Assembly: GCA_015039365.1 (NCBI GenBank)
Contig: WION01000538.1
Location: 1-36,024, forward strand
Direction of reading: 5' to 3'
Length of the DNA: 36,024 nucleotides
Source of the DNA: Amanita rubescens
Lineage: Eukaryota > Basidiomycota > Agaricomycetes > Agaricales > Amanitaceae
In this document: in pieces, positions 1 to 36,024 of the stretch
Numbering within the stretch: the first letter of the stretch is position 1
Layout: every line of letters starts with the position of its first letter
Made by a program: the position numbers and the translations under genes
The notes under the pieces: generated by a model
Seen by the model: the letters and a program-made list of their open reading frames with translations, nothing else
What the model was told of the DNA's origin: nothing
The model's database searches: none

Positions 1-1096
1 CTGCGGCAACTGCCTGGTTCCAAGAGGTACCAGTTGTCTTTGGAAAATGAAAGGTGTCCGGTCCATAAACCGTCCGTGACCACCTTTATAAGCACTCCCA
101 GTAACAATATGAAAGTATACGTGGATGCCTTTTGAGCAGAGCCAACGGCTAATCTAAGGCGCTCTCTAGGAGTGGACGCCTAATAGTCTGCGTGTATGGT
201 CCACAATGGGACCCCAGCACGACCTTTATACTTTATGAATGCTACTATGGGGCCATATGTTCTACATATGGTAACTAAAGGCTCTAAGGGCCTTATGATG
301 GAATATCGTGCATGAATACCCCAGTCACATCACGGAGGGCAAGTATAACTCCGTGGGGGTCAAGGTTGCCATGCCAGCCTTGAGAAACATAGGTGGTACC
401 CTTATCCCTGGGTGCAAGGAGATCCCCCTAAAGCCCTAGGGTCCGGGCGCATGTCATAAGCTCGTATGTCAGGTACAAGAACTCAGTTAAATTGACGGAT
501 GCCACTCAGGTCTCCGACCCGCACAATACTATACCTGTTCACACATCTTGCATGGTAACATGCCTGGAGGCGATGGTGATGCAAGCAATACCATGTCGGG
601 GCCCATAACCTGACGAAGATACGCCCAGCAGCGCAGCGTCTAAGTATTAAAGTGAATACTTACTTAGAGTGGAGTGTAGAGTGGCGGTGACGACCTCAAA
701 CGATAACTCACTATCCTATGGATATAGGATGTGGTGGTAAGAGGAGAAGGAAGGTTCTTTTTTGTACCTACGTACAGGTAGTCTTATATACTACTAGTAT
801 CCTAATAAGTACAATGTATAGTAAATAGAGGAAGAGCTGTGTATGACGTATGATATGACGTCTAGCGCAGCTATGACGCGTCTACCGCAGTAATGGGATG
901 ACGCAAGCGACTATAGGATATTCCAGTATCCTATGTATGTATATGTACGTGTATATATGTATGTGAATACATATATGCATGTATGTACATCTAATCTGTA
1001 TATCCTAATCTATAGGATAAGATATGATGTATTATCTTATATGAGATAAGATAAGATATACGTTATCTTATATGATTAGATAAGATAACTTTAACA
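1..1096 (-). repeat. 3' LTR of the Copia element (cut by window edge)
   Basis: This segment is homologous over most of its length to the right LTR, including the block around 305-450 that matches 6797-6955. Read on the minus strand it appears to begin TGTTA at 1096, a usual Copia LTR start, directly after the truncated RT. Its inner part (920-1090) is AT-rich and holds an inverted repeat with arms 1062-1071 and 1080-1089 (GTTATCTTAT / ATAAGATAAC). The outer end lies before base 1. Confidence 0.7.
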
Positions 1097-4000
1097 ATAT
1101 GATGCCTGTTTCAATCCATATATGGCTTTCCTCAGCCTATATACTTTAGATTCTTGTCCTTTTACAACGAAACCTTCTGGCTGGGCCATGTAAATATCTT
1201 CATCAAGATCGCCATATAAGAAGGCAGTTTTTACATCTAGGGCTTGTATATCCCAGTTTTCAAGCACTGATGTGGCCAGAAGTATTCGGATTGTTTCATA
1301 TCTCGCTACAGGCGAGAATGTTTCGTCGTAATCTAATCCGGGACGTTGACTAAAACCTTTAGCTACGACGCGTGCTTTTTTGCGTCCATCGGTTTTTAAG
1401 TCGAAAACCCAACGACATCTGATTAGGTTTCGTCCTTTTGGAAGATCAACTAACTCCCAAATGTCTCTAGATTGAAGAGATTTAAATTCGTCATCCATTG
1501 CAATCTTCCATTGTTTATACAATTGAGGATTACTGGAGCGCATTTTAGATATATCTCTATAGTCATATGGAATATTATCCACAAGGGGGACAGCCGCTTT
1601 TAGAAGAAAATGAAGGAATTCATTTCCAGATTCATTAATCATTCGGGTTAAATGATCATGTTCTGCAGATTTTAATTCAGATTTTAAAGCGAAGATTTCT
1701 TTAAGTAGAGAGGCAGATTCATTCATTCTATCAGGGTTCCTGTCTGCTGACGGTGGATCCTGAGTTGAAGAACTCGGAGTTTTATCTTTTAACTGCTCTC
1801 GTAAAGCATCTCGCTTTTGCTGAATTTCCGCTTCTATCTGTGCAGGAGTTTTATCTCCATATGCGTTGTCTCTTTGTACCCTTGGAACTGGAAAACGACC
1901 GGAACGGCGAGGACCTATTTGTACAGAGGGTGGACCAGGATCAGATATGATCGGTGGAGGAGGTCTAGGTCTCTGAGCAAATTCTCTAAAACGATCTCTT
2001 TGACGTTGTTCAAATTGATCAAATTCTCGATCCGTCATAAATGGGTTTTCTATTTCATCACGATCTCTTTGATTCAAAGAGAAGGGATTATCTTCATCCA
2101 TAGGACTACGAGGCGAAGGTGGCCTAGATACATATGGTATCGGTGTTATAGGCCTAGAAGGAACAGGAGTCTCCTCTTTAATTTGTGGAGAGGGAGTACG
2201 TCTAAAGGGTTCAGGAGTTTTACGTTTCTTAAACATATCACTCATTTGACGTTTGAATTGATCTCGTAAACGAGACTGTTTATCAATTCCTTGACCCTTT
2301 TTCCAATCATCGCGTTGTCTACGATAATTGTCACGTCTTTCTTGTTCTCTATCTTCCCTTTGCCTTCGGATATTATCATCCAAAAAATCTCTTCGTCGAT
2401 CGGCAAATTCATCACCGTCATCATCATCGTTTGAATCATCAGAAGGGTCTGATTGCTGTCTATCAGGAGATGCACCCCTTCGATCCAAACCGGGTGAGCG
2501 TCTTCTGCTCGGAGAACGTCTACGGTTCTCTGGGAGTAAGTCATCTAAATCCAAATTTTGTGGAGGGCGGTTAGGTTCCTCTTGAGGAATCGCCTCCCAG
2601 ATCGGACCAAGATCTTCAGTAATTATATCTGCAGTCTTTCCTTTGCGCGGAAACCTGTTTTCAAAGAATGTAGCCTGGGAGGATATGACCAGTGTGTTTG
2701 TCGACGTCATGAACCTATAGCCTTTGGTTCCTGATTCATATCCTACAAAAGTACATAAAACGGATTTTTCGGACAGCTTATCCGGTCTCCGTTGGTCAGG
2801 GATAAATACCCAGGCTTCACATCCAAATACTCGAAAGTATGATACGTCTGGTTTTTTATTAAGAAGATTTTCCAGAGGGGTCTTCCATTTAGTCCTTTTT
2901 AGGGGAGTGCGGTTGTACACATGCACAGCCGTTCTGAATGAGAACTCCCACCAAGATTTCGGACATCCTGCGTCTAATCGCATAGCCTCAGCTTTGTCTG
3001 ACAAAGTCTGATTCATGCGTTCAACGCGACCATTTTGTTGTGGGGTGTAAGGAGCTGTCTGTTGATGTTTAATTCCTTTGGATTTAAGGAATTCTTCAAA
3101 GGCTTTATTTACAAATTCCCCCCCTCGATCAGAACGGAGGTGAGAAATAGGTTGTTTAGGATCTACAAACTCATTATACCATCCGGTAAAATATTCTAGA
3201 GTTTGATCTTTGGTTTTTAATAAACCAATCCACGTATACGAGGTGAAATCGTCAACGATAACACCAATATATTTGTATTTGTGGTAAGATATGGCCGGTA
3301 CGGTCATAAGATCCATATGGAGTAACTCGAAGGGACGAGTAGCTCTCTTCGAAGACAGTTTATAAGGTTTTGCCTTCATTTTGCCTTTTAGACAACCTTC
3401 ACAACGTAGTTTTCCTTCTGGAAGTACAACTTCTTTCCATCCATTGACATTTAACGGTATCTTCGAAAAGACTTCGTTAGATGGATGACCAAAACGTTTA
3501 TGCCAGGTCTCGTAGTCTAATAATTTTTCTATAGACTCTGCGTTTGGTTTCTTTGTCGGTCTTCCAAGAATTAATTTAGAATTCCTGTTGGCTAAGCCAG
3601 GACCGGAAACCAGTGTAGGATTCATTATAATAATCCTACCTCGAGCGTAAACTAATGTATCATCGGGCATAAGATAATGTCCTTCGATACACGTTCTACC
3701 CGAGTCTGTAAAGGAAAAGACTACCATCTTTTCATCTTGTTTACAAGTCAATCCTTGTCGGATTAATCTGCCGTTTGAAATCAAGCGTGCAGTTGCCCGT
3801 GGCATATAGAGTACAGGGAAGAGCTTTACGAGTGTTACTTCTCCTGTGGATAACTTGTGTTCAAGAATAACTGTGCCAAGTCCCTCAAGACGATCTAAAC
3901 CATTAGCAGTTTTAACACTGTGGTTTTCATTTGCAGGAAATTCTCTGTATTCAGAGAAGTCTTTCCTACTAAAGGTAAAGTGATCGGATGCACCGGAGTC

Positions 4001-5653
4001 ACACATCCATAGTGTATCTCCAGTACGTTTCTCTACACATTCCGGACAGGGACATGTCGGATGTACTTTATCCTTAAATTTTCTTTTATTGACCGCTAAA
4101 CATGTAAAAGGTTTCTTAAACATGTTACCAATATTATATGATCGTTCAATCATATTTGCATTATAAATGGCAGTGTCACACGACTTATCTCTTACGAGGC
4201 AGTTTTCGTCTAAATTTTCTTTATAATTTATACTATCATATAGTACAGATTGTTCAAAGAAGGAATTTATAGTACGACGATGATGTCCCAATTTAGGGAA
4301 CACCATTTTCATTGCTGCCTCTATAAAGAGAAAGTTAGCCATTTCCAGCTTCTTAATGGTTTCATACCATTGTTCGCCGTTATCCTCATAGTAATAATCG
4401 TCATAATATAGTTCAGCTTCCTGATCTATATCCATGTTCTTGTAGTCGATATCGTCTGACGATATCCCCATTCCTCGGTTTGATTTATAGGACTCAAAGT
4501 CCAGTTCATCCTTTTCTCTTTGTTTGCCTTTGCTGGAGCCGGCAACTGGCTCAGTGATGTCATAAGGTCCAATACGGGCAACGGTATGTGCAGAACTCAT
4601 AGTATGTTCTGCTGCTTTGGCAGCCTTCTTCTCGGCTGCATCTGCCTTTCGGCGTTCTCGGTTCCTCTCCCAGTTAGGACCACGTGTTTGGCCCTCAACT
4701 TTACCCGGCCAATTTTGATTTGCCGGAGGAGCAGTAGGAGCCGGTGTCTGAGCGCCTTGTGGAGGCCTAGAATAAGGCCTCCCCCCACGTCCACGACCTG
4801 CTCCGCGGCCACGTCCGCGAGCACGTCCTCGTCCTCGACCACGTACTTGTTGCCATGGTTGCTGCTGTTGTTGCGACGTATTAGCTGTCGCGGCAGATTC
4901 AGGGTGCCTTCGGCGCCACTCATTCTGAATTAAGGGAAGTATCCCTTGGATCGTAAGATCCGATGGTTCTGTTGTGGCTAGAACCACAGCAGCAAAGTTG
5001 TCCCAATGACGAGGGACGGCTGAAAGTACAATCATTGCCTGTACGTTTTCAGGCAATACGATTCCGCTAGATGATAAGCGGTTTATTATGGCAAGGAGGT
5101 CGTTTAAGGATTGTGTGGGATCCTTTCTATCTTGAAACTTCCAAGTAACGGCTAATTGGAAGTCATTATAGATACCGGCAGACGTTGTCACACCGTATTG
5201 ATTTGCTAAATTCCGCCATAAGACTCTGGCGGCATTTACTTCTGAATTGATCTGCTGGATAGTAGCAGAACATTTCATATTTATGGATCCGAGGATGCGG
5301 TCATCCTCGACAACCCAATCTTCAAAAGCCTTTTTTACGGCCTTTGCATCATCAACCATTTGTTGGGTGATAGCCGGTTGACCCTCAACGGCTGGGATTG
5401 CAGGTATTGCTGCATGTGTACCATGCGCGGCAACTGCTGCTACCGCAGGTTGTGCAGTTACGGCTGCACGAACACCTGTCTCGATGAAGAATTGTTGTAG
5501 CGGAGTAATCCGCGGAGGATGAACATAATCATCCTTAAGGTACTGAAACAGTCCCTTTGTTTGTAATAGGAAACGCATCATGCGTTCCCATTCTTTATAG
5601 TTAGTTCCATTCAAAACGGGAATGGAACTAGGAATCGTCAAGTCGTTAGACAT
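1091..5653 (-). CDS. Copia Gag-Pol polyprotein, C-terminally truncated
   Basis: The 1520-residue frame starts with a Gag region of the DUF4219/UBN2 type (start MSNDLTIPSSIPVLNG) followed by an RG-rich RNA-binding stretch near residues 270-295. No classic CCHC knuckle is obvious; a CPCPEC cluster precedes the protease. The aspartic protease motif DSGAS follows, then the GAG-pre-integrase zinc site (H..H...C..C), and an rve integrase core with DDFTSYTW, SDRGGEF and a catalytic E in QNGRVERMNQ. A long RS/D-rich spacer links integrase to RT. RT begins normally (WELVDLPKGRNLIRCRWVF, LDVKTAFL) but ends at GLKQAS followed by Y, C and a stop, before the YVDD box. RNase H is absent. The protein could still give Gag, protease and integrase but not cDNA synthesis. 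Confidence 0.9.
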   Translation of the reverse strand: MSNDLTIPSSIPVLNGTNYKEWERMMRFLLQTKGLFQYLKDDYVHPPRITPLQQFFIETGVRAAVTAQPAVAAVAAHGTHAAIPAIPAVEGQPAITQQMVDDAKAVKKAFEDWVVEDDRILGSINMKCSATIQQINSEVNAARVLWRNLANQYGVTTSAGIYNDFQLAVTWKFQDRKDPTQSLNDLLAIINRLSSSGIVLPENVQAMIVLSAVPRHWDNFAAVVLATTEPSDLTIQGILPLIQNEWRRRHPESAATANTSQQQQQPWQQVRGRGRGRARGRGRGAGRGRGGRPYSRPPQGAQTPAPTAPPANQNWPGKVEGQTRGPNWERNRERRKADAAEKKAAKAAEHTMSSAHTVARIGPYDITEPVAGSSKGKQREKDELDFESYKSNRGMGISSDDIDYKNMDIDQEAELYYDDYYYEDNGEQWYETIKKLEMANFLFIEAAMKMVFPKLGHHRRTINSFFEQSVLYDSINYKENLDENCLVRDKSCDTAIYNANMIERSYNIGNMFKKPFTCLAVNKRKFKDKVHPTCPCPECVEKRTGDTLWMCDSGASDHFTFSRKDFSEYREFPANENHSVKTANGLDRLEGLGTVILEHKLSTGEVTLVKLFPVLYMPRATARLISNGRLIRQGLTCKQDEKMVVFSFTDSGRTCIEGHYLMPDDTLVYARGRIIIMNPTLVSGPGLANRNSKLILGRPTKKPNAESIEKLLDYETWHKRFGHPSNEVFSKIPLNVNGWKEVVLPEGKLRCEGCLKGKMKAKPYKLSSKRATRPFELLHMDLMTVPAISYHKYKYIGVIVDDFTSYTWIGLLKTKDQTLEYFTGWYNEFVDPKQPISHLRSDRGGEFVNKAFEEFLKSKGIKHQQTAPYTPQQNGRVERMNQTLSDKAEAMRLDAGCPKSWWEFSFRTAVHVYNRTPLKRTKWKTPLENLLNKKPDVSYFRVFGCEAWVFIPDQRRPDKLSEKSVLCTFVGYESGTKGYRFMTSTNTLVISSQATFFENRFPRKGKTADIITEDLGPIWEAIPQEEPNRPPQNLDLDDLLPENRRRSPSRRRSPGLDRRGASPDRQQSDPSDDSNDDDDGDEFADRRRDFLDDNIRRQREDREQERRDNYRRQRDDWKKGQGIDKQSRLRDQFKRQMSDMFKKRKTPEPFRRTPSPQIKEETPVPSRPITPIPYVSRPPSPRSPMDEDNPFSLNQRDRDEIENPFMTDREFDQFEQRQRDRFREFAQRPRPPPPIISDPGPPSVQIGPRRSGRFPVPRVQRDNAYGDKTPAQIEAEIQQKRDALREQLKDKTPSSSTQDPPSADRNPDRMNESASLLKEIFALKSELKSAEHDHLTRMINESGNEFLHFLLKAAVPLVDNIPYDYRDISKMRSSNPQLYKQWKIAMDDEFKSLQSRDIWELVDLPKGRNLIRCRWVFDLKTDGRKKARVVAKGFSQRPGLDYDETFSPVARYETIRILLATSVLENWDIQALDVKTAFLYGDLDEDIYMAQPEGFVVKGQESKVYRLRKAIYGLKQASYC

Positions 5654-6249
5654 GTTAGACGAGGAAGGCGGAGGTGATGATTATGATATAGGCGGTTAGA
5701 AGACGCCAAAAGAAATGGAAATTTCTTTGATTTTCGAGGTTTTCGACCTCTTGGTTATCTCTTTCGAGATTACGGCGTGTACGCCTATTTGCTATGTGTT
5801 GGGCTACTGAAGTGCCCCTGGGTGGAATCCAAAGATCTAAGGTGGGCGGAACACCTTCTTCGATAGCTTCTTGCCGACGACGATGTATTATTTCGTCTTG
5901 CAAGGTACGACCGTTTTTAAGTCGTGCGGCTAAGAAGTGATCTCTTCGATCGTGAACTGTGACAGGTCCACGAGTTGTGACACCGAATCTAGTGTCAGAG
6001 TTGACAACACGAACTATCGTCCTAGAATGGGACGAAGATGGAATTGGTGCCGGTGTATCAATAAAAGTCCGGTTCCCTAAGGTTAAGGGAAACGGTGGGA
6101 TTGGAGCGTCGTAAGAAGGAGGTAATCTCCGGGTAGGAGGAAATGATTCTCCTTCGGCTTCGTAAACTGGTAACGGGGTACTAGTTTCGGAATCCAGTTT
6201 TCTTTCCTAAAAGAGAATTTAATGAGCTTAAAGCTTAATTAAAGCTAAA
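5654..6249 (-). other. Copia 5' internal leader
   Basis: This stretch lies between the polyprotein start and the 5' LTR. It holds an 82-codon open frame at 5655-5903 that ends in a hydrophobic run; I see no known domain in it and do not call it a gene. A primer-binding site could not be fixed: the best candidate is TGGTAACTT on the minus strand near 6280, and the inner LTR border is uncertain by some tens of bases. Confidence 0.4.
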
Positions 6250-7454
6250 AGTCTAATTCGTCTTTATTAAGTTACCAGGGTGCCATAGACTAGAATGTCA
6301 GACTATATAGAGTTCCTCGGTTACGAGTACAGTCCATATTCGGTTAAACCAACCGACCCTGAGTAACTTAGTTACAAGCCAAGCTTAGATAAAGCTCAGG
6401 TCCACAGGTCCACTCGGTCTTGAAAGCTCGGATTATCCCTGAATGCTGTAAATGACATGCAAAATCAATCGCTGGCTCAAGCGCTCTTGGGCGAACCACG
6501 GTTTTACCCGTTGCGATTGTAGATAGAAATAATGTCTGGTCCATAAACCCCCCAGACCATTATATAAGCACGACCGGTAACCAATATGAAACTTCTAAAT
6601 GGGATTATGGGATCACCATAGAGCCCAAACTTAGAATGATCCTAACGATCATTCCGACTAAAGGAGTCCCTAAGGGCGCATCCTTAATAGACTGCGTGTA
6701 CCACCCACAATGAGGTGTCAGCACGTCCTTTATACTAGAAGTTTCTATATACGAGCCATATTGTATTATAAAGCCTCTAGGGGCTTATGATGTTATATCG
6801 TGCATGAATACCCCAGTCACATCACAGAGGGCAAGTATAACTCTGTGGGGGCCGACGTTGCCATGCCAGCGTCGAGAAACATAGGTTGTACCCTTATCCC
6901 TGGGTGTCTAGGAGATCCCCCTAAAGCCCTAGGGTCCGGGCGCATGTCATTAGCGCATATGCCATATCAAGGATCAGTTATATCAAGATGATAAGACCAT
7001 ATCAGGCTCGCTGCGATACTATACCAGTGGGACATCATGTCGTATGACGAGCAAGCGAGCGGCGATGTGGGTCCTGGCAATATCGACGGCGGGGCCCATA
7101 ACCTGACGAAGAAGACAGGTCTACGCGAGAGCGTGTCCACAGCATGAGCAGGTGCAATAGCTTACCTATTGCGATATAGTCTTAGCACTACCCTTCGGCG
7201 TAGTAGTGATAGTAAGAGGAAGAGAATGGATTGTCCTATTCTACGATATAGGACAGGTTTATATACTAAGAGAGAACAAATATGTGTCTACATATGTGTA
7301 AGCGTATAGTATAGATGGGAAGATATGGCGTGCTAAGCACACCATAAGGTGTGATCATGAGTCTATCATGATGTCACCATGATATCATAATGAAGTCATT
7401 ATGATGTCATCTCTATGTCATACATAAAGGATGACGCGAGCGATATGAGTAACA
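6250..7454 (-). repeat. 5' LTR of the Copia element
   Basis: It is the partner of the LTR at 1-1096. Read on the minus strand it begins TGTTACTC at 7454, which gives the outer end; homology with the left copy is still visible at GGATGACGCGAGCG (7427-7440), matching GGATGACGCAAGCG near 897. The part at 7330-7420 is rich in short inverted repeats built from ATCATGA and TCATGAT. The inner border at about 6250 is approximate. Confidence 0.7.
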
Positions 7455-7522
7455 TTGATCATAGTCTATCAGTAGTTAATCATTCTATAAATATAATTCT
7501 ATATTTAACAATCACTTTTCAG

Positions 7523-7773
7523 ACTACTTATCTTCCTAAAGTCATGAATGTTCAATATCCACCAAAAGCCTATGTGAGATTGGAAGGTAAGAATGAAGCT
7601 CTTCCTGCTTTAACAGATACATATCATATTTTGTTAGATATGGATATGCCAGAAAATGACTGTCCTGAATTGAGTGAGAAGACAGCCTTTGCAATTGATG
7701 ATGCCAGTCTACAAGAACTGTTTGTCTCAACACAAATGAACAATCTTGACCTTTGTGTTAAATCTGGACTTCA
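7523..7773 (+). CDS. Micro-exon gene, first recognisable exon
   Basis: The exon follows an acceptor ACTTTTCAG (ending 7522), has an in-frame ATG at 7544 (MNVQYPPKAYVRLEG) and ends at a GTGAGT donor at 7774 in phase 2. Composition is acidic and soluble, with no signal peptide. The Copia LTR ends at 7454, so an upstream exon or the promoter may have been displaced; a possible donor GTAACA at 7449 straddles the LTR end. Confidence 0.6.
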
Positions 7774-10700
7774 GTGAGTATCAAACTAACTTGTTTTGCT
7801 TTTAATGAAATGTTGAGTGTCCAGACATGTCTTGAAACGAGAGGAAACCTCATTGGAGGATGCCTTTCTCATTGTACTCAGCAAATTTCCACATTACTGG
7901 GTACTTACAAAACAAGACTCATATGGGTATAAGAAAACTAAGTGAAAATCAGGTTGCCAGAGAAGTAAGTATGTTTTACAAAGATGTGAAATGCCAGTGA
8001 TTGTGCAAACTCACTGAGGTCAATGTAAGTATCACAATTTACCTTCTTTCATGATTGCCCCAACCAACAAATAAGGATGATGTATGTTGACATAAATTCA
8101 CCCATCCAAATATTTAATCATTTCTGAAACAACCTTATATTAAGAAACACAATGACATTGATGTGAGTATCACACAAATGTTCTTGCCATAAATCTGATG
8201 CCTTTGACAACAGTGGGCAAGTGATTTCAAATGATAAAGATCTTTGATCAGTATTGATCTCATGATAAATAGTTTGTGAGTGATGCTACTCATACATATG
8301 TATATCAAGGAAATATTAAATGGACAATAGCAAGTAAGTGATAATGGACATTTTTGTGATAATTTCATTATATGCAATCTGATAAACAGGAAGTAATTTA
8401 AACTTGTCTCTGAGGCAATTAAATTGTATCTCATCCCATAATCAGGCAGTGAGTGATAATTCTATTTGGTCAGGAAGTCACATGTCATGCATCTCCTGTG
8501 ATACAGATTGTAAGTGATGGAATATTCCTCAATTGCAAGAAGTGTCACCATGTTTTTGACTAATAGAAAGTAAGTGATATTGTGGTTTTGCATCTCAAAT
8601 CATCAGATGGCTTACAGGCTGTGAGCAACATCACTGAGCTAAGGAGTTTTATTTGGTCTCAACCTGTGACCAACAGGCTGTAAGTTGCACTGTATCATTT
8701 TTGTGGAGTAGCATCTCTCAAGATACACAGGGAGTGAGTGAAATTGCATAGAAACCTGCAATAACTGTCTCAGTATTATACTGGGAGATTGTGAGTGCAA
8801 GTGCAAGTGCCTCAATTACAGTCCATCAATGATGAACAGGAAGTAAGTGATATTGCACCTCTGTTTTCAGAATAATATCCCAATATATACAAAACTACAA
8901 AGAGTGAGCAATTTCATTATGTATTGGACTATATCAAATTTCATCGTCTTAACAGGAAGTTTGTGTTGCTGCCTTTTAGCTAATCAACCTGATTAATGCA
9001 TTTCTGGTCAAATAGTGAGTGCATGGTGAAACACTTGGTGCAGCTCAACATGCAGCTTACATCTCATACAGGTAGTGAGCCCACTGCATTGTTTTCATTG
9101 TGTTGTTGCATTTTATCCCATGACCAACAGTATGTGAGTGATACTGCATTTCTTTCTTTACCATACAGTCTCATTGCATTTCATCCCATAACCAACAGTA
9201 TGTGAGTGGCACTGTATTTCTTTCTTTACCATGCAGTCTCATTGCATTTCATCCCATGACCAACAGGAAGTGAGTGACACTGCATTTTCTTTTTTACCAT
9301 GCAGTCTCATTGCATTTCATCCTACTATGGCCAACAGGGAGTGAGCACACAGCATATGGTCATGTGACAGTCTCATTACATTTCCTGTGACCAACAGAGA
9401 GTGAGTGACCATGAATTGTTTCTTCATCTCATTGCATTTTATCCCACAACAAACAGGAAGCAAGTCACATTGCATTTTTTTCTTAACCATGCAGTCTCAT
9501 TGCATTTCATCCCATGGACAACAGGGAGTGAGCTCTTTCTTTGCCATGTAGTCTTATTGGACTTCCTTTGACCAACAGAGAGTGAGTGATACTGCATTGT
9601 TTTCTTTGTGTCATTGCATTTCATCCCATGACAAACAGGAAGCAAGTGACACTGCCTTTTTTTCTTAACCATGCAGTCTCATTGCATTTCATCCCATGGC
9701 CAACAGGGAGTGAGCACAATGCATTTCTTCCTTTATCATGCAGTCTCATTGCATTTCATCTCATGACCAACAGATTGTGAGTGACACTGCATTTTTTCTA
9801 TACCATGCAGTTTCATTACATTTCATTCCACTGTGGTCAACAGGGAGTGAGTGACACTGAATTTTTTCTCTGTCATGCAGCCTCATTGTATTTCATCCCA
9901 TGATCAACAGGCAGTGAGCACACTGCATTGTTTTCTTTACCATGCAGTCTCATTGGTTTTATCTGATGACTAACAGATAGTGAGTGACTGCATTTTTTCC
10001 TCTTACAATGGAGTCTCACTTTGCATTTCATCCTGTGGCCAACAGGGAGTGAGTGATACTGCACTTTTCTTTATCATCATTCAAGAACTTGTTGCATTTT
10101 ATGACCAATAGGCAGTGAGTGACATTGCATTTTGTCTCATTCCATTTCATCCCATGATCAAAGTATGTGAGTGACAGACACTGCATTTCTTTCTTCACCA
10201 TGCAATTCTCATTGCATTTAATCCCATGACCAACAGGAAGTGAGTGACACTGCAATTTTTTTACCATGCAGTCTCATTGCATTTCATCCCATGGCCAATA
10301 GGGAGTGAGCATGTGACTGCATCTCTTTCTTTACTATGCAGTCTCATCACAATTCATCCCATAACTAACAGATTGTGAGTCACATTGCATTTTTTTCTTT
10401 ACTATGCATTTCATCCCATGGCCAACAGGGAGTGAGTGCCACTGCATTTTCTTCTGCCACATTCTCAGTCAGAATCTCATTGCATTTCATCCCATGACCA
10501 ACAGCTGGTGAGTGATACTTTCTTTTTCCCTTTATCATGCTGTCTCATTTCATTTTATTTTATGGCTAACAGAAAGTGAGCAATGTTATTCCTTTCTCCA
10601 CTTGAACATCTAAGCAAGCCCAATTCTCAATCAACAGGAAGTAAGACTTGTGTCCAAAACCAAACTATCATAATTAAAACTTCCCTTAAACAACAGAGAG

Positions 10701-11447
10701 TGACCCTTTACATTCTCTTTGTGAACACTTGACAAGTTATATCTGACATCATGTGTCACAGGATGTAAGTGATTTAGCAATTTATTACAATAGATGGTTG
10801 CAACAAATGTTATCTTATATGTATAACAAATAGAAAGTGAGCAGAATCTTATATTCAATTAACCAATCATATTTATAACTAACAGAGAGTGAGTGTCACC
10901 ATTGCATTGGGTGGCCTTATCTTAACACATCCCACAACCAATAGCAAGTGAGTTTACCACTGCTGTGGCACTGCCTTTATGGTCAGGAACTTTATCTCAT
11001 CACATTTCATGAGCAACAGCAAGTGAGTAACACAATCATTTAAGTCACATGTCTCATGCTGCCTCTTATGGTCAATAGTTTGTAAGTTTGGACAATGCTT
11101 CTTCCTGTTCTATCTCATTATTATAATTAGGTTGTGTGTGACACCAGGCCTTGCTGCCACCTATATCACTTGACAATAGCATTTGTTTTGTTTTTTTATC
11201 AACAACAGAAAGTGAGGGCAGTACTCTTTTCCTTTTGCATGGCCTTTCACTCATGAATGTAGAGAGTAAGTGAAATTGAAATTCCATCCAGAATGTTGCA
11301 TTTGATATATTTTGATAGAAAGTAAATGAAAATCTATTCCTCTGCTCCATACATTGACAATCATCCTTGTATTTATAGATTGTAATATTATATACCTTCA
11401 ATTGTTCCAAGTACCTTTCTCTAATGGTTCCTTCTTGGAGCACTTAG
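7523..11447 (+). CDS. Micro-exon gene with 49 single-codon exons
   Basis: The predicted gene has 56 exons: 7523-7773, 7825-7900, 7953-7964 (12 nt), 8019-8024 (6), 8076-8081 (6), 8145-8162 (18), 49 exons of exactly 3 nt from 8214 to 11321, and a terminal exon 11379-11447. Every 3-nt exon has AG directly before it and GT or GC directly after it, usually CAACAG and GTGAGT. Introns are 48-75 nt, normal for these fungi; two are 113 nt because a unit has decayed. Exon 1 ends in phase 2 and exon 2 brings the frame to phase 0, so each 3-nt exon is a whole codon; none of the 49 is a stop. The product is about 187 residues from the ATG at 7544, or 194 from the acceptor at 7522. I recognise no domain. 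The 5' end may be lost to the adjoining LTR. The alternative is a tandem repeat that carries splice-like motifs; against it, introns at both flanks of the array differ in sequence while the AG-NNN-GT rule holds. Confidence 0.65.
7825..7900 (+). CDS. Micro-exon gene, exon 2 (sets phase 0)
   Basis: The intron 7774-7824 runs GTGAGT to CCAG and contains CTAAC. The 76-nt exon plus the two bases left from exon 1 makes exactly 26 codons (HVLKREETSLEDAFLIV within it) and ends TAC TGG before the donor GTACTT at 7901. From here on every proposed exon is in phase 0, which is the key to reading the single-codon exons. Confidence 0.6.
7953..8162 (+). CDS. Micro-exon gene, exons 3-6 (12, 6, 6 and 18 nt)
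   Basis: The exons are 7953-7964 (V-A-R-E), 8019-8024 (V-N), 8076-8081 (D-D) and 8145-8162 (K-H-N-D-I-D). Donors are GTAAGT, GTAAGT, GTATGT and GTGAGT; acceptors are TCAG, TGAG, TAAG and TAAG; introns are 52-63 nt. All four lengths are multiples of three. Exon size thus falls from 76 nt towards the 3-nt array that follows. Confidence 0.55.
8214..8842 (+). CDS. Single-codon exons, block 1 (12 exons)
   Basis: Exon starts and codons: 8214 tgg W, 8273 ttt F, 8331 caa Q, 8390 gaa E, 8446 gca A, 8507 att I, 8567 aaa K, 8618 gct A, 8677 gct A, 8731 gga G, 8788 att I, 8840 gaa E. The first has a GC donor (GCAAGT at 8217); the fourth has GTAATT; the others are GTRAGY. The introns here are not clearly alike beyond their ends, so this block is not a simple satellite. 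The twelve residues in order would form a plausible helix. Confidence 0.6.
8899..9020 (+). pseudogene. Two decayed single-codon units
   Basis: At 8901-8903 (aga) and 9012-9014 (ata) the spacing, the 3-nt core and the GTGAGY donor are those of the array, but the acceptor reads AA in place of AG. Both fall on the expected 55-61 nt rhythm. If they are skipped, the introns become 113 nt and the frame is unaffected. An alternative for the first is an exon 8871-8903 of 11 codons behind TTTTCAG at 8870, which would replace exon 8840. Confidence 0.5.
8956..9269 (+). CDS. Single-codon exons, block 2 (5 exons)
   Basis: Exon starts and codons: 8956 gaa E, 9072 gta V, 9131 tat Y, 9199 tat Y, 9267 gaa E. 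Donors are GTTTGT for the first and GTGAGY for the rest. From 9131 on the introns become alike (GTGAGTG, ACTGCATTT, pyrimidine run, CATGCAGTCTCATTGCATTTC, CAACAG), marking the start of the tandemly duplicated section. Confidence 0.6.
9338..10507 (+). CDS. Single-codon exons, block 3 (19 exons, duplicated)
   Basis: Exon starts and codons: 9338 gga G, 9398 aga R, 9457 gaa E, 9525 gga G, 9579 aga R, 9639 gaa E, 9707 gga G, 9774 att I, 9844 gga G, 9911 gca A, 9977 ata I, 10046 gga G, 10112 gca A, 10164 tat Y, 10237 gaa E, 10302 gga G, 10372 att I, 10429 gga G, 10505 ctg L. The exons at 9457 and 9639 have GC donors (GCAAGT). Introns here are clearly related in sequence, and a three-exon period of about 190 nt (E-G-R) is visible from 9267 to about 9707. 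Duplication of intron-plus-codon modules therefore produced a low-complexity G/E/I/A peptide. Confidence 0.6.
10573..11321 (+). CDS. Single-codon exons, block 4 (13 exons)
   Basis: Exon starts and codons: 10573 aaa K, 10638 gaa E, 10697 aga R, 10762 gat D, 10834 aaa K, 10886 aga R, 10945 caa Q, 11020 caa Q, 11079 ttt F, 11131 gtt V, 11209 aaa K, 11263 aga R, 11319 aaa K. Donors depart more often from consensus (GTAAGA 10641, GTGACC 10700, GTGTGT 11134, GTAAAT 11322). Introns are again unlike one another. The encoded stretch is strongly charged, mostly basic. Confidence 0.55.
11379..11447 (+). CDS. Micro-exon gene, terminal exon
   Basis: After the acceptor TTTATAG (ending 11378) the phase-0 frame runs 22 codons (IVILYTFNC at its start) to TAG at 11445-11447. 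The alternative is one more 3-nt exon (att, donor GTAATA) and an intron ending CACTTAG at 11447, giving the last codon CAC and stop TGA at 11451-11453. Both readings end the protein here, just before the hAT element. Confidence 0.4.
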   Translation: MVILYTFNCSKYLSLMVPSWST

Positions 11448-11659
11448 CACTGAGCCACCTAAGAATAGAGATCAGTAAGGGTACAGGAAACCCTAGGGTT
11501 TTTCCAAGGGTTTTGCAGAGGGTGAGGGTGAGGGTTGGCCCTTGCCAACCCTTCATAACCCCTCCCTATAGGTGGTCACCCTTCTTACCCCTGGGAGAAA
11601 TATATAGTGTACTTCCATAACAATAAAATACACGAAAATTTTACACATATTCATCTGCC

Positions 11660-14600
11660 ATGGACACAACCAAGGAGGGCCGCAAGCGCAAGGCCACCTC
11701 AAGGTTCGAACAGAGCACTGAAGCCTTCACCAAGAGGTTGAAGGATGCCCAGACCGAGCGTCAACAAGCGCAGTCAACATCCGAGACATTAACTTCTGAG
11801 ATGTCTACACCTGTGACGCGGCCTGGGACCCCAACCGATGCCAACGATAACAGTGATGAAGATGATAACTACGATTTAGAGGTTCTGGATGGCCCTCCCA
11901 ACACCTCTAATCCAGATCAAGCAACCGATAACGGGGGTAACAGCAAGAAAGTACTCGTAGACTCTCAGGAAACTCTCGGTGAGCCTACCATCACTCCCTG
12001 CAAATGGAAATTGATCAGTAACTCCAAAGACGAGCTGTATAAAACATATAGATCACCTGTCTACGTATTCTACCTGCCCCCCGTGTTCAAAGTTGAAGAC
12101 GACAAGCGGCTCCAAGTCTTCCGATGCGCAGCCAAGGAGTGCATCACTACAGGAGGCCACATCGTCAAAAGAAACATGCGCACTTCCGATAAATCATCAA
12201 CTTCCAATCTCATTGCTCATGCGAGCAAATGCTTTGGTGAAGACGCTATCTCTTCTGCAATGAAGGTGAAGGACTTGAGGGTGGCACGCAGCGTGATGAA
12301 GGACAAGCTTAACCTGCGACGTAGCGGTTCAATTACGGCCGCATTTGAACGTGTAGCTCAAGGAAAGGTTACGTACTCCACGAGGCAAGCAAGTAATCAT
12401 GAAGTGCGCGCCAATCACGTCCGCTGGATGTGCGAGAGTAAACGGCCCTTCGAGTTAGTCAAGGATCCTGGGTACCACCTGAATATGAAAACCGGGCGGC
12501 CGCAGCAGTACATACCGGCACCGACGACGGTTGCCCAGGATGTACGACAGGTGTTCTTGGCTGGCCGGAAACTGATAGCTGCAAACCTACAGGTGCATTG
12601 TGTTCAGAATCACGTTCAGACATCATATTTAACCCTCATAAAAAAAATGCACCCATTAGACACACGAAGGGAAGTTGCACTTCGGAACGGATTGTTGGAC
12701 ATCTCCCAATCGGCGAGCATACATGGCGGTGACCGTCCAATATACAAGCAAAGGGGTCATGAACTCATGGCTGCTGGATATTGTCGAGGTCGCCCGGAGG
12801 CATACTGGTGCAGAGCTCGCGGCCCAGTTTGCAAAGGTTCTAGATACATTCGGGATTAGCGATAAGGTAAGCGGCTCAGAGTGCAGACGATTGGAACTGT
12901 AACTCACTGTTTTTTCGTGTCAGATATTGTCTCTGACATGCGACAATGCTAGTAATAATGATGTACTGGTGGACGATTTGGCTGATAAAGTGGCATCATT
13001 TGGTGGTGATGCCACACGGGTCCGTTGCTTCGCACATGTGATCAATCTGGTCGTAAAGAGTGTTCTTGCGCAGTTTGATGTTCCCGTCAAAGAACTTGAA
13101 GGTATGGGAGCAGCTGGATCCGAAGCCACGTCAGCAGATGGGAATGATAATGATTCCGATGCGCGCGCACAGCTTACCCAGCTTCGTCGACTCGCCGAGG
13201 GGCTTGCTGAAGAGATGCAAATCGAAATCGAGGAGGAGCCACTTGAAGACCGTCAGCAAGATGACAATGACGGCTGGATTGATGAGCGGAGGGGTATGAC
13301 TGAGAGAGATCTGCATTTGTTGGCGCAGGATGTCATGCCTGCGAGACGTATGTTAGTAAAGGTGTGTAGGTGTTTGTGTGTCCACGTGGGTCCACCGTGG
13401 CGCGCACAGCCTTATCTTGGGCTAAGGGTATCTAATCCAGGCTTACGCTACTTCCTGCAGCTCCGTAAGACAGCCTATGCGCTCAAGAACTCACCGACCG
13501 TATCTATGCCTCGATGGCGAGAACTTTGCAAGGTGCATCAACTGAAAGAGAAAAATATGCCCACGGACGTTCGCACACGCTGGAACTCGACTTACCATAT
13601 GCTCGAGTTCGCTATTACTTATCGGGTTGTCATTGACAGTCTCACAGGCGAACGTGGATTGGGACTACGGGATTACGAGCTGGACCTAGGGGAATGGATG
13701 CTAGCCAAGCAACTGCGCGACATCCTCGAAGTAAGTGTAACAACCAACCCCGTTCCTCTTTGACCACCCTCGCCACACAGATATTCAACGACGCCACCGA
13801 ATTTTTTTCAAGATCTAAGGTGGCGAACCTCACTACGGTCATCCCAGCCATGGATCGTCTAGACCAACATCTTGCGACATCAATGGTCTCACAACAATAC
13901 TCGCTGGCTATCCGTGCTGCTATGCGCATCGGAAAGAAAACACTTAACCGATACTACTCCAAGACCGATCACTCGGAAATGTATCGCATCGCGATGGGTA
14001 TGTATATGAATCATATAGTCATAACTCGTACTGACCAAAATCTCGACCAGTTTTGGATCCACGGCTGAAACTCTCGTACTTTCAGTCGCTCCAGTGGGAG
14101 ACGGAATGGATTGACGAGGCGCGCAGGCTAGTGACAGCAGGATTGTCAAAGTACTTGGATCCGCTGGCGTCGGTCATCTCCGACGAAAACGAGTTTATGG
14201 TATGTACAGCATGACTGTTTTAGTAATCTGCTGTTCGCTTAACTACAACATCTATTCTAGATCGACAATCCACAGCTTCGCATGGAGGAAACACGTAAGA
14301 CAACCAACATGTTCGACGATTTACTCAGTGGGCCCAGTCCGGTATCTGGCTCGTCCAGGACTAGATTGCCTGCCGACGAGCTGGCCTTGTATCTTAGCAG
14401 TGGTGTCGAGTACCTCAAGAATGATGCAGGGAAGCCCGGCGATCCTCTGAAATGGTGGAGAGAGCACCGTGACACATATCCGAGGCTCGCGGCCATGGCA
14501 TCTGATTATCTATCCGTACCATGTATGTCTTTCTTCAATTCCTTGCTGTTTCTTGCTTATCTGATGCATCTTAAGCCACAACAGTTGATGTAGAGCGCGT

Positions 14601-19311: not shown

Positions 19312-19768
19312 AGTGCTGGTGCTGGTGAATTGTGATGGTGAATTGTGATGGTGAATTGTGATGGTGAATTGTGATGGTGAGTGCTGTGATGGTGAGTGCT
19401 GGTGCTGGTGAGTGCTGTGATGGTGAGTGCTGTGATGGTGAGTGCTGGTGCTGGTGAGTGCTGTGATGGTGAGTGCTGTGATGGTGAGTGCTGGTGCTGG
19501 TGAGTGCTGTGATGGTGAGTGCTGGTGCTGGTGAGTGCTGTGATGGTGAGTGCTGGTGCTGGTGAGTGCTGTGATGGTGAGTGCTGGTGCTGGTGAGTGC
19601 TGGTGCTGGTGAGAGCTGTGATGGTGAGTGCTGGTGCTGGTGAGAGCTGTGATGGTGAGGGCTGGTGCTGGTGAGTGCTGGTGCTGGTGAGCGCTGTGAT
19701 GGTGAGTGCTGGTGCTGGTGAGTGCTGTGATGGTGAGTGCGGGTGTTGGTGAGTGCGGGTGCTGGTTG
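19312..19768. repeat. Minisatellite of GTGAGTGCTG units
   Basis: Two alternating units, GTGAGTGCTGGTGCTG and GTGAGTGCTGTGATG, fill the interval, preceded by four GTGAATTGTGATG units. The unit lengths of 15-16 nt keep long frames open on the minus strand, which gives spurious T/S/H/Q proteins. Confidence 0.85.
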
Positions 19769-33000: not shown

Positions 33001-33596
33001 GCTCTCTCAAGGTTGATCCAACCAAGGCTTAGCGCTTAGGTACTCGACTCGAACGGAGACAACCTACAGTTCGTTGGAAGAGAAGAGTGCATATGAACCG
33101 AGTATAACGCGGCACGAGAAGAGCGGCGGTCATAAGACAGATCTGGGCTGCCCGAACACTCGTCCCTCGGCCGCCGCACGGCCCACCCCATTTTTCCTGA
33201 TTTTGCCTTTTATAAGTCTGTTCTCACTCACAATCCTTCTCTGCGTGATTCTCAATTTGAATATTAGGAAGTGCCGTTATACTAAGCAGAATCGGGGCTC
33301 GCAGACCCACTGTTGTCCGTAACTGTAGTTTGTGGCAGTCAGTAAAAAAGAATAAAATGTAACAAACGTACTTCCCAATTTGTTTATTTTCTACATCAAC
33401 TGACTTCTGTTTGATGATAAGTTCCCGAGGCAGCCTAGATGTACTGATCCTTGAAAATCGCAGTTCTACAGACCATTGCTTGAATGAATTTGCAGACCTG
33501 AAGTCGTGTAGAGCTGACCCTGGCGCTTCCTTTTCACGACTGTCACGGTCACCTGCTACTAGCTAGTGTTACCACGCGTTCAAAACCCTCCGCATT
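33001..33596. other. Upstream region of the XPG-type gene
   Basis: No gene is seen. An 82-codon frame (33074-33322) with a hydrophobic middle has no supporting context. The promoter of the gene at 33597 should lie here, but no clear TATA box is present close to the ATG. Confidence 0.35.
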
Positions 33597-36024
33597 ATGG
33601 GTGTAGCAGGGCTTTGGGAGGTACGTAGGAAGCACAGTCCAGGACGCTCTGTTGAAAACATCCAGGTACTTAAACCGGCCGTAGAAGTACGCTCCATGAC
33701 AGAGCTGGCGATCACGGAGGGTTTTATCGCCAATCCACAGGGACTTCGCGGGTTTCGGATTGGAATAGACGCGAGTATATGGTTCTTTCATGCCGAATAC
33801 GGGAAGAAGGGCGAAAATCCGGTGCTCCGCACGCTTTTTTTTCGTTGCGCTACTCTGATGCGGACGACATTCTTGCCATTGTTCGTTTTCGATGGTCCGA
33901 AAAGGCCCAACTTCAAACGCGGCAAAAAGATTAACAAGACCCGTCACCAACTTATTCCCGGTATGAAGGCTATCATTGAGGCTTTTGGATTCGAATGGAG
34001 AATGGTGGGTTTCCGTTTCTTTCGATTTTCCCCCTTTTTGAGTAGCTTGTAGGCTCCAGCTGAGGCTGAGGCCGAGCTAGCGTATCTCAATAGAGCTGGC
34101 ATCATTGATGCTGTACTCTCAGATGACGTTGATAACTTCCTCTTCGGCGCCACTACCGTAATCCGCAAGTGCGCCTTCCAGCCGCGACGTGATAGTCTGA
34201 CTCATACCCCTTTCCAGTTTAAGCAACAATCTTTCTGGTAACAGAGCAAACCCCATCTTGAATAGCGAAGGCAGGGACGACAAGAACCATACAGGGTTGT
34301 ATCGAGCGTTGACAATTCGCAGCCATTCGTCCATTTCACTTACCAGGGGTGGCTTTGTACTTATAGGCCTCTTGTCGGGTGGTGATTACGCTCAAGCCGG
34401 TTTACCTGGGTGCGGTATTACCACTGCCCACGCGCTCGCACGCTGCGGCTTCGGTGACTCTTTATACGAAGCAGCTACTACCCTACCTGCTGATGCTCTC
34501 CCCAATTTTCTGGCCCATTGGCGCCAAGACTTGCAAGAAGAACTTCGAACGAATTCTCGAGGAATCATAGGTCGTAAGCTGAAGAAACTAGCCAAAGAAG
34601 TCCCCAACTCTTTTCCCAACATCGACATCCTCCTATCCTACACAAACCCCATAACTTCCGAGAGCCTCGGATGCGCGGCCGAGAAAAATATGAAGCTGAC
34701 TTGGGGGAAGGAGCCAGATGTTGGTAAACTGGCAGCTACATGTGAATTCTACTTTGAGTGGGGATACAAAGAAGCGATTATCAAGCGATCTAGGACGCTG
34801 CTGTGGCACTCGATCGTACTACGAATATTGAGGCGGGCCGTGATCAACGCGGAAACATCTGACTATAGCTCGTCCTCAACTACCATGCCCTCTACACCGC
34901 GTAAAGGCAAGGACCGGGCACATCCTCGCATTATTAATACGCCATCTAAAATGGTTGCGAGGCATTTTGCTTCGATGGGTCTCAACTCGCCAGAGTCTGG
35001 TGATGAAGGGCCTCTTATTGTGAAGATCCACTCTTCGCGAAATCATGCGAGCACGGATGGGCTTTTAGAATATCGTCTCGAAGTGGCACCCGCTCAGCTG
35101 GTGCGATTGGCAGAATCAGGCATCAAGAGAATGAGGGAGCCTTCGCACACGGACGAGTGGACATCCGAGGAGGATGTTGGAGGGGACAATGCCGATTCCG
35201 ACGCTGGGAAAAAGACCAAGGGACTGAAGCCACCTCCGGATCCGACAAGTCATCTGCGGCTGTGGATGCCAGCATGTATGGTGGAAATGGCAGAACCAGA
35301 GATCGTCGAAGAGTATAATGAGCGAAGGTCTAAGAAGGCTTCGAAGGAGAACGGGAAAGCTAGAGAAGAATCAGGCGCTACAAAGCAGTCAAAGAATAAG
35401 GTATCAAAGTCCCAGAAACCGTTATACGACTCGGACACAGATCAGCAGCTACCCCTTGAAGACATGCTTGCGAAGAGAAAGGCGACGATACAGTCGACTC
35501 CTAGCCGTAGAGCCGATGGACGGATGGTGCTACCAGCTTTGTTTGAAGAAAGCCAGGAAAGCGGATCCAACGCGTTATTTTCAATGCCCATTTTTATGAC
35601 ACAGTCACGCGCCGAATTCTCCAAGACAGCCGCCAAATGTGAGAAACGGAGAAAGCCCGGGTTCGGCTATCTATCGTCATCAGATGAAGATGAGCAACCA
35701 CCATTTCCGATTTCGTTCAACAAGGAGGACGTGCTCTCGTCGAGCGATACTCATGGCCGGCTAAACACGATGAGACCCACGAAGACGAGTCTGGAGGGTA
35801 GTTCATCGCAGACGTCGGATTCCCAACGACACCAGTCGCCACGGAAATCTCTGAAACGCACTTTGGTAGAAAGCCAAGCACGGTCAACCTCTCCGCGTAA
35901 ACGAGCTGCTAACGCGAAGGCGGTCAATACGTCCGTCATCGAGATATCTTCGGACGACTCGGATGATTCCGGCGCTCGTCCGGCTTCTGTCTCTGTGCAA
36001 CGATCCAGTGTTCCGCCATTGATG
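33597..36024 (+). CDS. XPG/Rad2 family nuclease, GEN1/Yen1-like (partial)
   Basis: Exons are 33597-33620, 33666-34004, 34053-34168 and 34218 to the window end; junction phases agree and the last exon stays open for 602 codons. The product cuts flap, bubble or Holliday-junction DNA in this family. The N domain starts MGVAGLWE and shows the metal-binding aspartates in GIDASIWF and VFDGPKRP. The I domain shows APAEAEAELAYL (the catalytic glutamates) and LSDDVDNFLFG. GLLSGGDY supplies the last acidic residue and starts the helix-hairpin-helix part (AGLPGCGITTAHALARCGFG). A chromodomain-like region as in GEN1 could follow (CEFYFEWGYKEAIIK to about 35110). The tail is long, basic and disordered and ends with VIEISSDDSDD, similar to a SUMO-interacting motif. 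The unusually small first exon (8 codons) is supported by the family start. The C terminus is beyond the window. Confidence 0.9.
35935..35967 (+). other. SUMO-interacting-motif-like segment of the XPG protein
   Basis: The segment encodes VIEISSDDSDD, a short hydrophobic core followed by acidic and serine residues, the usual form of a SUMO-interacting motif. In Holliday-junction resolvases of yeast such motifs link the enzyme to SUMO control; that this applies here is inference. Confidence 0.45.

Follow-up and report, generated by a model that had tools for sequence, protein, structure and literature searches.

A gene fragment with a ladder of one-codon exons

The window analysed here is a stretch of 36,024 nucleotides (nt), contig WION01000538.1 (C482 in our numbering) of the 75.7 Mb Amanita rubescens assembly. 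It holds a fragment of a GTPase-like gene that runs into a ladder of about 50 consecutive exons, each read as a single codon. We consider it highly probable that this is a truncated copy from a large GTPase-like family with about 30 to 85 mostly single-codon exons, and that such exons are spliced in frame in three sister genes. Loci of the family are numbered with L and proteins with P. The parts of the fragment are:

7511..11437, + strand: GTPase-like gene fragment, by blastn to L009 and L011, with sharp edges on both sides
7511..7586, + strand: partial exon ...TFQTTYLPKVMNVQYPPKAYVRLE, 5' end cut (sequence, protein relatives)
7587..7637, + strand: ordinary 51-nt intron (sequence; protein P0014 reads YVRLE-DMDIPEN across it)
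7638..7773, + strand: exon DMDMPENDCPEL...DLCVKSGL, 136 nt (sequence, sister models, P0014)
7825..7900, + strand: exon of 76 nt whose end reads FPHYW (phase 0), last of the ordinary exons preceding the ladder (sequence)
7953-7964, + strand: short in-frame exon VARE (sequence)
8019-8024, + strand: short in-frame exon VN (sequence)
8076-8081, + strand: short in-frame exon DD (sequence)
8145-8162, + strand: short in-frame exon KHNDID (sequence)
8214..11381, + strand: ladder of about 50 one-codon exons (AG-NNN-GT units, read as phase 0)
8840..9074, + strand: two decayed units of the ladder, near 8904 and at 9016, whose joint omission preserves the frame
9106..10555, + strand: tandem-repeat part of the ladder, with a unit of about 68 nt (intron plus codon; Tandem Repeats Finder)

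The ladder reads W F Q E A I K A A G I E ... E R D K R Q Q F V K R K I in phase 0, with introns of about 45-75 nt. A sequence-only reading of this DNA had counted 49 AG-NNN-GT units from 8214 onwards, and this number is borne out: a scored chain also has 49 units, and a permissive AG-NNN-GT/GC listing, from which overlapping decoys were excluded, has 51 in series from 8214 to 11379. In the permissive listing units are spaced by 48-78 nt, with a single gap of 116 (8840 to 8956). The unit at 9016 is doubtful (codon TGA, weak donor) and dropping it gives the second 116-nt gap that had been described (8956 to 9072). The strict form [CT]AG-N3-GTRAG[TC] occurs 37 times within 8200-11400, while the same form with any other spacing from 0 to 30 occurs at most twice. 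Sequences shuffled with preservation of dinucleotides contain 0.07 such units on average and never more than one (n=300). Part of the ladder, at 9106-10555, is a degenerate tandem repeat with periods of 68, 135, 182 and 204, i.e. also about two and three units. The AG-NNN-GT pattern is equally present on both sides of it, in the parts 8214-9072 and 10573-11379, which are free of reported tandem repeats.

Upstream of the ladder, the exons of 76, 12, 6, 6 and 18 nt that had been proposed can be read in the sequence. The proposed exon of 251 nt was wrong, as it includes the intron at 7587-7637; the same split (58 + 136 nt) recurs in the models of L014 and L027. The end of the FPHYW exon is identical in sister loci, and P0014 contains a peptide, IAKVNKHNNIEW, that resembles the short exons at 7953..8162.

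The fragment is 98.96% identical to L009 and L011, two copies with both gene ends, and the match to them stops at 7511 and 11437. L010 has much of the window's structure in common (98.7% over 9.7 kb). A tblastn search of the 36,024-base contig (E <= 1) gave no match to the P-loop exon, to the initial 38 residues of the G4 query or to the last exon. Judged from these comparisons, the window copy is truncated, apparently lacking the last exon as well as the 5' half with the P-loop and the G4 motif, and the earlier description of a whole gene has to be given up. A Pfam scan of the joined window exons gave no match. An Rfam RNA was also considered for the window and rejected, with no match at the gathering score.

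A large family of GTPase-like genes

P-loop GTPases of the TRAFAC/MMR_HSR1-like type carry the motifs G1 (GxxxxGK[ST]) and G4 ([NT]KxD). Both are found in complete copies of the family, which consist, in this order, of a P-loop exon (GRANAGKT), a G4 exon (TKFD), an exon ending FPHYW or FPHFW, a few short exons, the ladder, an exon of the type PELxSLFG and a last exon IIAKLSFW...YVxKLKxxIT. Sister copies have conserved exons on both sides of the ladder, and in the copies through which proteins were threaded (see below) the ladder both starts and ends in phase 0. Automatic annotation performs poorly on these genes: the first models overran gene ends or lost the frame, and in later modelling L009 remained without a model, while those of L014, L015, L016, L018, L022, L027 and L028 show partial frame loss or doubtful exons. 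The Pfam family MMR_HSR1 matches four of six proteins at 16.1-19.3 bits, below its cut-off of 21.9, and does not match the two that lack G1; PF01926 is precomputed on some NCBI models. Immunity-related GTPases, which combine a G domain with an IRG helical domain, gave a weak fold match and we claim no kinship with them. We take the product to be GTPase-like, with a variable, probably disordered segment and the start of a C-terminal helix coded by the ladder.

The exon preceding the ladder has at least 150 matches in the assembly (302 first-look candidates, of which 150 were scored), some of which look like allelic or duplicated contigs. We fetched 20 loci, including three near-copies of the window gene, and in 19 of them single-codon units form a chain of 12 or more, the longest in this chaining having 49; the other, L017, has a single such unit. 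A frame-blind parse was then made of 15 loci, i.e. the window and 14 of the 20, leaving out L017 and five near-duplicates and retaining the close pairs window/L009 and L018/L022. With splice-site profiles trained on 3-nt units, it assigned exactly 3 nt to 646 of 729 internal exons. Ladder introns in this parse, which permitted 42-139 nt, have a median of 61 nt (5-95% range 48-112). Among 416 strict units from 13 loci we found 40 different codons and no stop, where 25-33 stops were expected.

Counts in the whole assembly give the same picture. The pattern ACAG-N3-GTGAGT paired at 45-70 nt with AG-N3-GTGAGT occurs 2859 times, against one occurrence for a version with 4 nt and two for the reversed 3-nt pattern. 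As 17 loci hold 818 units for 198 strict pairs, a rough extrapolation puts the assembly total at some 12,000 single-codon exons, duplicates included; three of these loci (L032-L034) had been chosen for their dense matches. The arrays of L032, L033 and L034 have 72, 85 and 78 units, and the shortest arrays measured have 26 to 31.

All the named relatives listed in protein searches are from Amanita. No named NCBI protein among those listed extends over more than 52% of the first query sequence, and P0062 and P0014 continue into the intron directly after the W. Public annotation of the family thus seems to stop at the first one-codon exons.

Contiguous proteins follow the ladders codon by codon

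The part of a hand-joined L018 model that covers the ladder and the C-terminus (residues 125-268) was searched against about 5.8 billion proteins. The 44 candidates included four relatives, which span 89-99% of this part of the model and lie on JGI contigs of 926-1099 nt. One of them, P0050 (992-nt contig), contains FADAKKQADKEREYFESPEMKRHQIYGAWNREEYDEELRNQHEELAAEVHEAAEETICPELFSLFG. It was found via the L018 model after the ladder of L028 had been modelled, and the L028 model had already placed the exons of this peptide except one K (given as 7 nt) and one missed H; its first ten ladder codons were out of frame owing to an upstream 8-nt exon. Three of the JGI proteins could be threaded through genomic ladders. 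P0050 follows L029 with 156 of 158 residues identical over 57 exons, 52 of them of 3 nt. For P0052 (285 residues, 1099-nt contig), 125 of 127 threaded residues match L031 over 51 exons, of which 40 are of 3 nt. P0060 was threaded through L022 over 107 of its 117 residues, with 106 matches and 18 single-codon exons; the threading omits the first ten residues, MTNGSENEQA, which have no single-stretch match in L018 or L022.

These matches depend on the order of the codons. When the 57 ladder residues among 100 tested residues of P0050 were shuffled, the other 43 being left in place, at most 68 were recovered in 40 trials, against 98 for the real order. For P0052, 66 of 68 ladder residues fit in the real order and at most 27 in 60 shuffles. 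The same 68 residues find 17-25 matches in six non-cognate members of the family and 60 in the close copy L030 (L026 had no anchor and was left out of this comparison). Nor was a contiguous genomic copy found. For P0050, 150 of 216 candidates were scored and not one of these matches begins before residue 78; for P0052, residues 148-217 are left unspanned by all 63 matches with E <= 1e-20. From the contiguous codon-by-codon matches, the failure of shuffled ladders and the absence of a spanning genomic match among those scored, we conclude that single-codon exons are very likely spliced. The claim that dozens of one-codon exons are joined in order is thereby supported for the sister genes; for the window copy itself it does not reach as far, as will be seen below.

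A profile search, for which we consider 120 of 147 hits, adds full-length products that include P0054 (461 residues), P0055 (445) and P0056 (478); their contigs measure about 1.5 kb. Nothing in the assembly closely matches P0054 or P0056 (the best-scoring matches reach 72% and 70%, apart from one stretch of 78 residues at 90% in P0056), so that their ladders were not threaded; they may come from other strains or species. In all, ten JGI proteins (P0050-P0058 and P0060) run through a ladder-type segment into the conserved C-terminus.

Splice signals and a possible mechanism

Ladder introns have the donor GTGAGTGAC and end in ATGACCAACAG; the TGAC in this 3' end, whose A precedes the cut by 8 nt, could plausibly serve as branch site. 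The third base of the exon is A or T in 392 of the 416 strict units and C in 2, whereas C and G make up 27% of third bases in the long exons of these genes. This suggests that position -1 of the donor is constrained.

In the mechanism that we propose, every intron, of about 60 nt, would combine GTGAGTG as a strong 5' splice site with a 3' end of compact form, and would be recognised as a unit across its own length. The two sites that flank a 3-nt exon probably lie too close together to be bound simultaneously. Neighbouring introns would then likely be removed one after another, with the remaining codon joining the exon of the next event. Since the units are one codon in phase 0, their gain, loss or skipping should preserve the frame, and the array could grow and shrink.

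The first unit of the window (TGG, 8214) has a GC donor. Such donors recur in ladders (also L030 706-708 and L031 786-788), and one of them adjoins a codon used in a matched protein.

A partial decoupling of codons and introns

If codons evolved like their flanks, two units with identical flanks would always share their codon. In 63 pairs of units with 60 identical flanking bases (11 loci), the codon is shared in 22%, for a chance level of about 5-10% within a locus; these pairs are not independent and were compared without gaps. The array of L032 (C8:75500-82600, units 2187-4424) is an extreme example, with neighbours at 56 nt whose introns are almost identical and whose codons are GAA, CGA, CAA, TAT, CTT and AAA. 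Yet, the decoupling is incomplete. Among units paired with the one nearest by its flanks (identity >=0.9), those with a common codon number 21 of 50 in L032, 5 of 8 in L033, 3 of 9 in L027 and 0 of 2 in the window. A block of three units (CTT CAA AAA) is repeated together with its introns. Hence, units and blocks have also been duplicated with their codons. Between diverged paralogs, 92-99% of the splice-site dinucleotides are kept.

This could reflect either homogenisation of the introns, with selection maintaining different codons between them, or diversification of the codons. One might speculate that ladders are generators of diversity by which a protein is altered by single amino acids, where introns are copied and homogenised along the array, codons are replaced or kept independently, and units come, go or are skipped with the frame intact, making a rewritable recognition segment in a large set of Amanita GTPases. 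We regard this as a tentative idea that is rather less probable than its contrary.

Weighing the reading

Several observations weigh against a large family of genes whose one-codon exons are spliced in frame. We found no transcript of the window copy. The profiles used for parsing bias the parses toward 3 nt; the spacing histogram and the genome pattern counts are independent of them, and in the shuffled threading the real and shuffled arms carry the same bias. TGA appears in 3 of the 646 3-nt exons of the frame-blind parse. In L021 (C749:1-9073), a stretch of the array shows steps of 1, 2 and 4 nt between strong splice sites, and is perhaps a decaying array. Between five pairs of diverged paralogs, identity is 0.55-0.73 at codon positions and 0.52-0.76 in introns, so there is no simple signal of purifying selection on codon identity. 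P0050 retains part of an upstream intron though more than 50 downstream introns have been removed, and intron removal seems not to proceed strictly 5' to 3'. Finally, we infer that the JGI contigs of P0050, P0052 and P0060 are most likely RNA, and the indirectness of this point counts in the same direction, as do some proteins discussed next.

The alternative that survives best, although we think it unlikely, is that the ladder is spliced but mostly skipped as a block or misread, the proteins being minor products and the array mainly feeding nonsense-mediated decay. In P0061, P0063, P0064, P0068 and P0096 the ladder, or what follows it, appears unspliced or out of frame, offering a possible view of splicing errors, and together with P0065 these proteins end in such sequence after or within the ladder, as this explanation would have it. 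Yet, ten JGI proteins, of which three were threaded, reach the conserved C-terminus through a ladder-type segment, and no block-skipped product was noticed among the 23 proteins read. For the three threaded genes, skipping of the whole block is rejected, as the ladder codons are present in order in the proteins. The sequence-only reading had named read-through or whole-array skipping as outcomes that would speak against it; both are contradicted for these three genes, although retained introns do occur.

Less probable is that the proteins come from intron-free copies, be they retrogenes or intron-poor orthologues, and that the ladders of the assembly are unspliced relics. Copies may be absent from an assembly, scoring covered a part of the first-look candidates and, as said, the contigs are RNA by inference. 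Against this, the proteins are nearly identical to specific ladder copies (156/158, 125/127 and 106/107), the scored matches include no contiguous copy, and P0050 and P0065 hold pieces of introns of ladder copies. The start of P0050, LFDGQQ, is the 3' end of the L029 intron adjoining the first ladder codon, and P0065 terminates within the L022 intron that follows the D codon. Partly spliced RNA would carry such remnants, whereas an intron-free gene would not.

Least probable of all is a non-coding tandem repeat derived from one intron, never spliced and with AG-NNN-GT as a by-product: the array does include about 15 copies of a 68-nt repeat and the window copy is a fragment, but the pattern continues outside the reported repeat, the 416 strict units are free of stops and contiguous proteins match the spliced ladders, which contradicts it for three sister genes. 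This could describe the present state of the window copy alone. A simple repeat artefact is rejected by the counts of spacings, the shuffles, the stop-free units and the share of 3-nt exons.

Relation to known systems

In recursive splicing, ratchet sites act as exons of zero length of which nothing remains in the product. Ladders resemble them in their adjacent 3' and 5' splice sites and in the likely sequential removal, and differ in that a codon of 3 nt stays in the product and the introns are short.

Schistosome micro-exon genes (MEGs) have exons of 6-81 bp according to the main text (3-81 in the abstract), mostly of 15 bp, 10-20 per gene, and introns of up to about 5 kb in the centre of the gene (PMC10526429). 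Runs of very short exons, lengths that are mostly multiples of three and poor automatic annotation are common to MEGs and to the Amanita genes. Yet, the latter are GTPase-like, with 30-85 exons in series, mostly of 3 nt (646 of 729 internal exons), and introns of about 60 nt (median 61), far from the exon lengths and long introns of MEGs. Secreted products are a further trait of MEGs. The bicycle genes of aphids have about 17 exons on average, with small internal exons of phase 2, and one gene (megacycle) has more than 100 microexons (PMC9168663). These too are large, fast-evolving families with many small internal exons in one phase. Here the ladder exons are in phase 0 in threaded models instead of phase 2, and the family is GTPase-like and found in Amanita, whereas bicycle products are candidate effectors of aphid galls. 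The Amanita arrays fall in neither of these two micro-exon families; in the broadest sense, they are an extreme of the micro-exon gene.

Short introns with tiny exons are known in fungi. P450 genes of Phanerochaete have introns of 45-55 bp, a shortest exon of 6 bp and microexons of 2-10 codons (PMC1184071), and Xlr2 of Trichoderma has a single, switch-like microexon (PMC11121469); the available portions of these two papers describe no arrays of one-codon exons. An exon of 3 nt can be spliced in mouse Ncam (cited in PMC8042270), where there is one such exon instead of dozens in series. Introner-like elements are near-identical introns inserted in unrelated genes; the near-identical introns at many positions of the ladders recall those of fungi (PMC4457414). 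In Amanita the copies are in tandem with 3-nt spacing, and their near-identity was examined within ladders only.

Literature searches found no report on Amanita microexons. For 3-nt or single-codon exons, no such array was recognisable from titles and the openings of abstracts, subscription journals being mostly outside reach. If our reading is true, the spliceosome joins dozens of successive 3-nt exons and, provided that introns are self-sufficient units, exon size has no lower limit in the range of one codon. This would open models of intron definition and of splicing order to direct tests. The mismatch between the evolution of introns and codons also bears on the origin of intron arrays.

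Surroundings of the fragment

The other features of the window are:

1091-5680, - strand: reading frame for a Copia-type polyprotein (Pfam RVT_2, rve, gag) on the upstream side of the gene fragment
276-489 and 6769-6980: pair of direct repeats resembling long terminal repeats, 88.8% identical, enclosing the Copia-type frame
11627-14068, + strand: reading frames resembling transposase, starting about 190 bases past the 3' edge of the fragment
19312-19766: minisatellite with a unit of 31 nt, about 15 copies, 91%
33567-34052, + strand: reading frame with an XPG N-terminal domain, slightly over the Pfam cut-off

A plain insertion of the Copia element that merely split off the 5' half of the gene was considered and rejected, as the rest of the sister gene has no match to the left of 7511 and no P-loop exon was found on the contig. 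The frames at 11627-14068 resemble a hAT-type transposase; a Pfam search of two of them gave no match.

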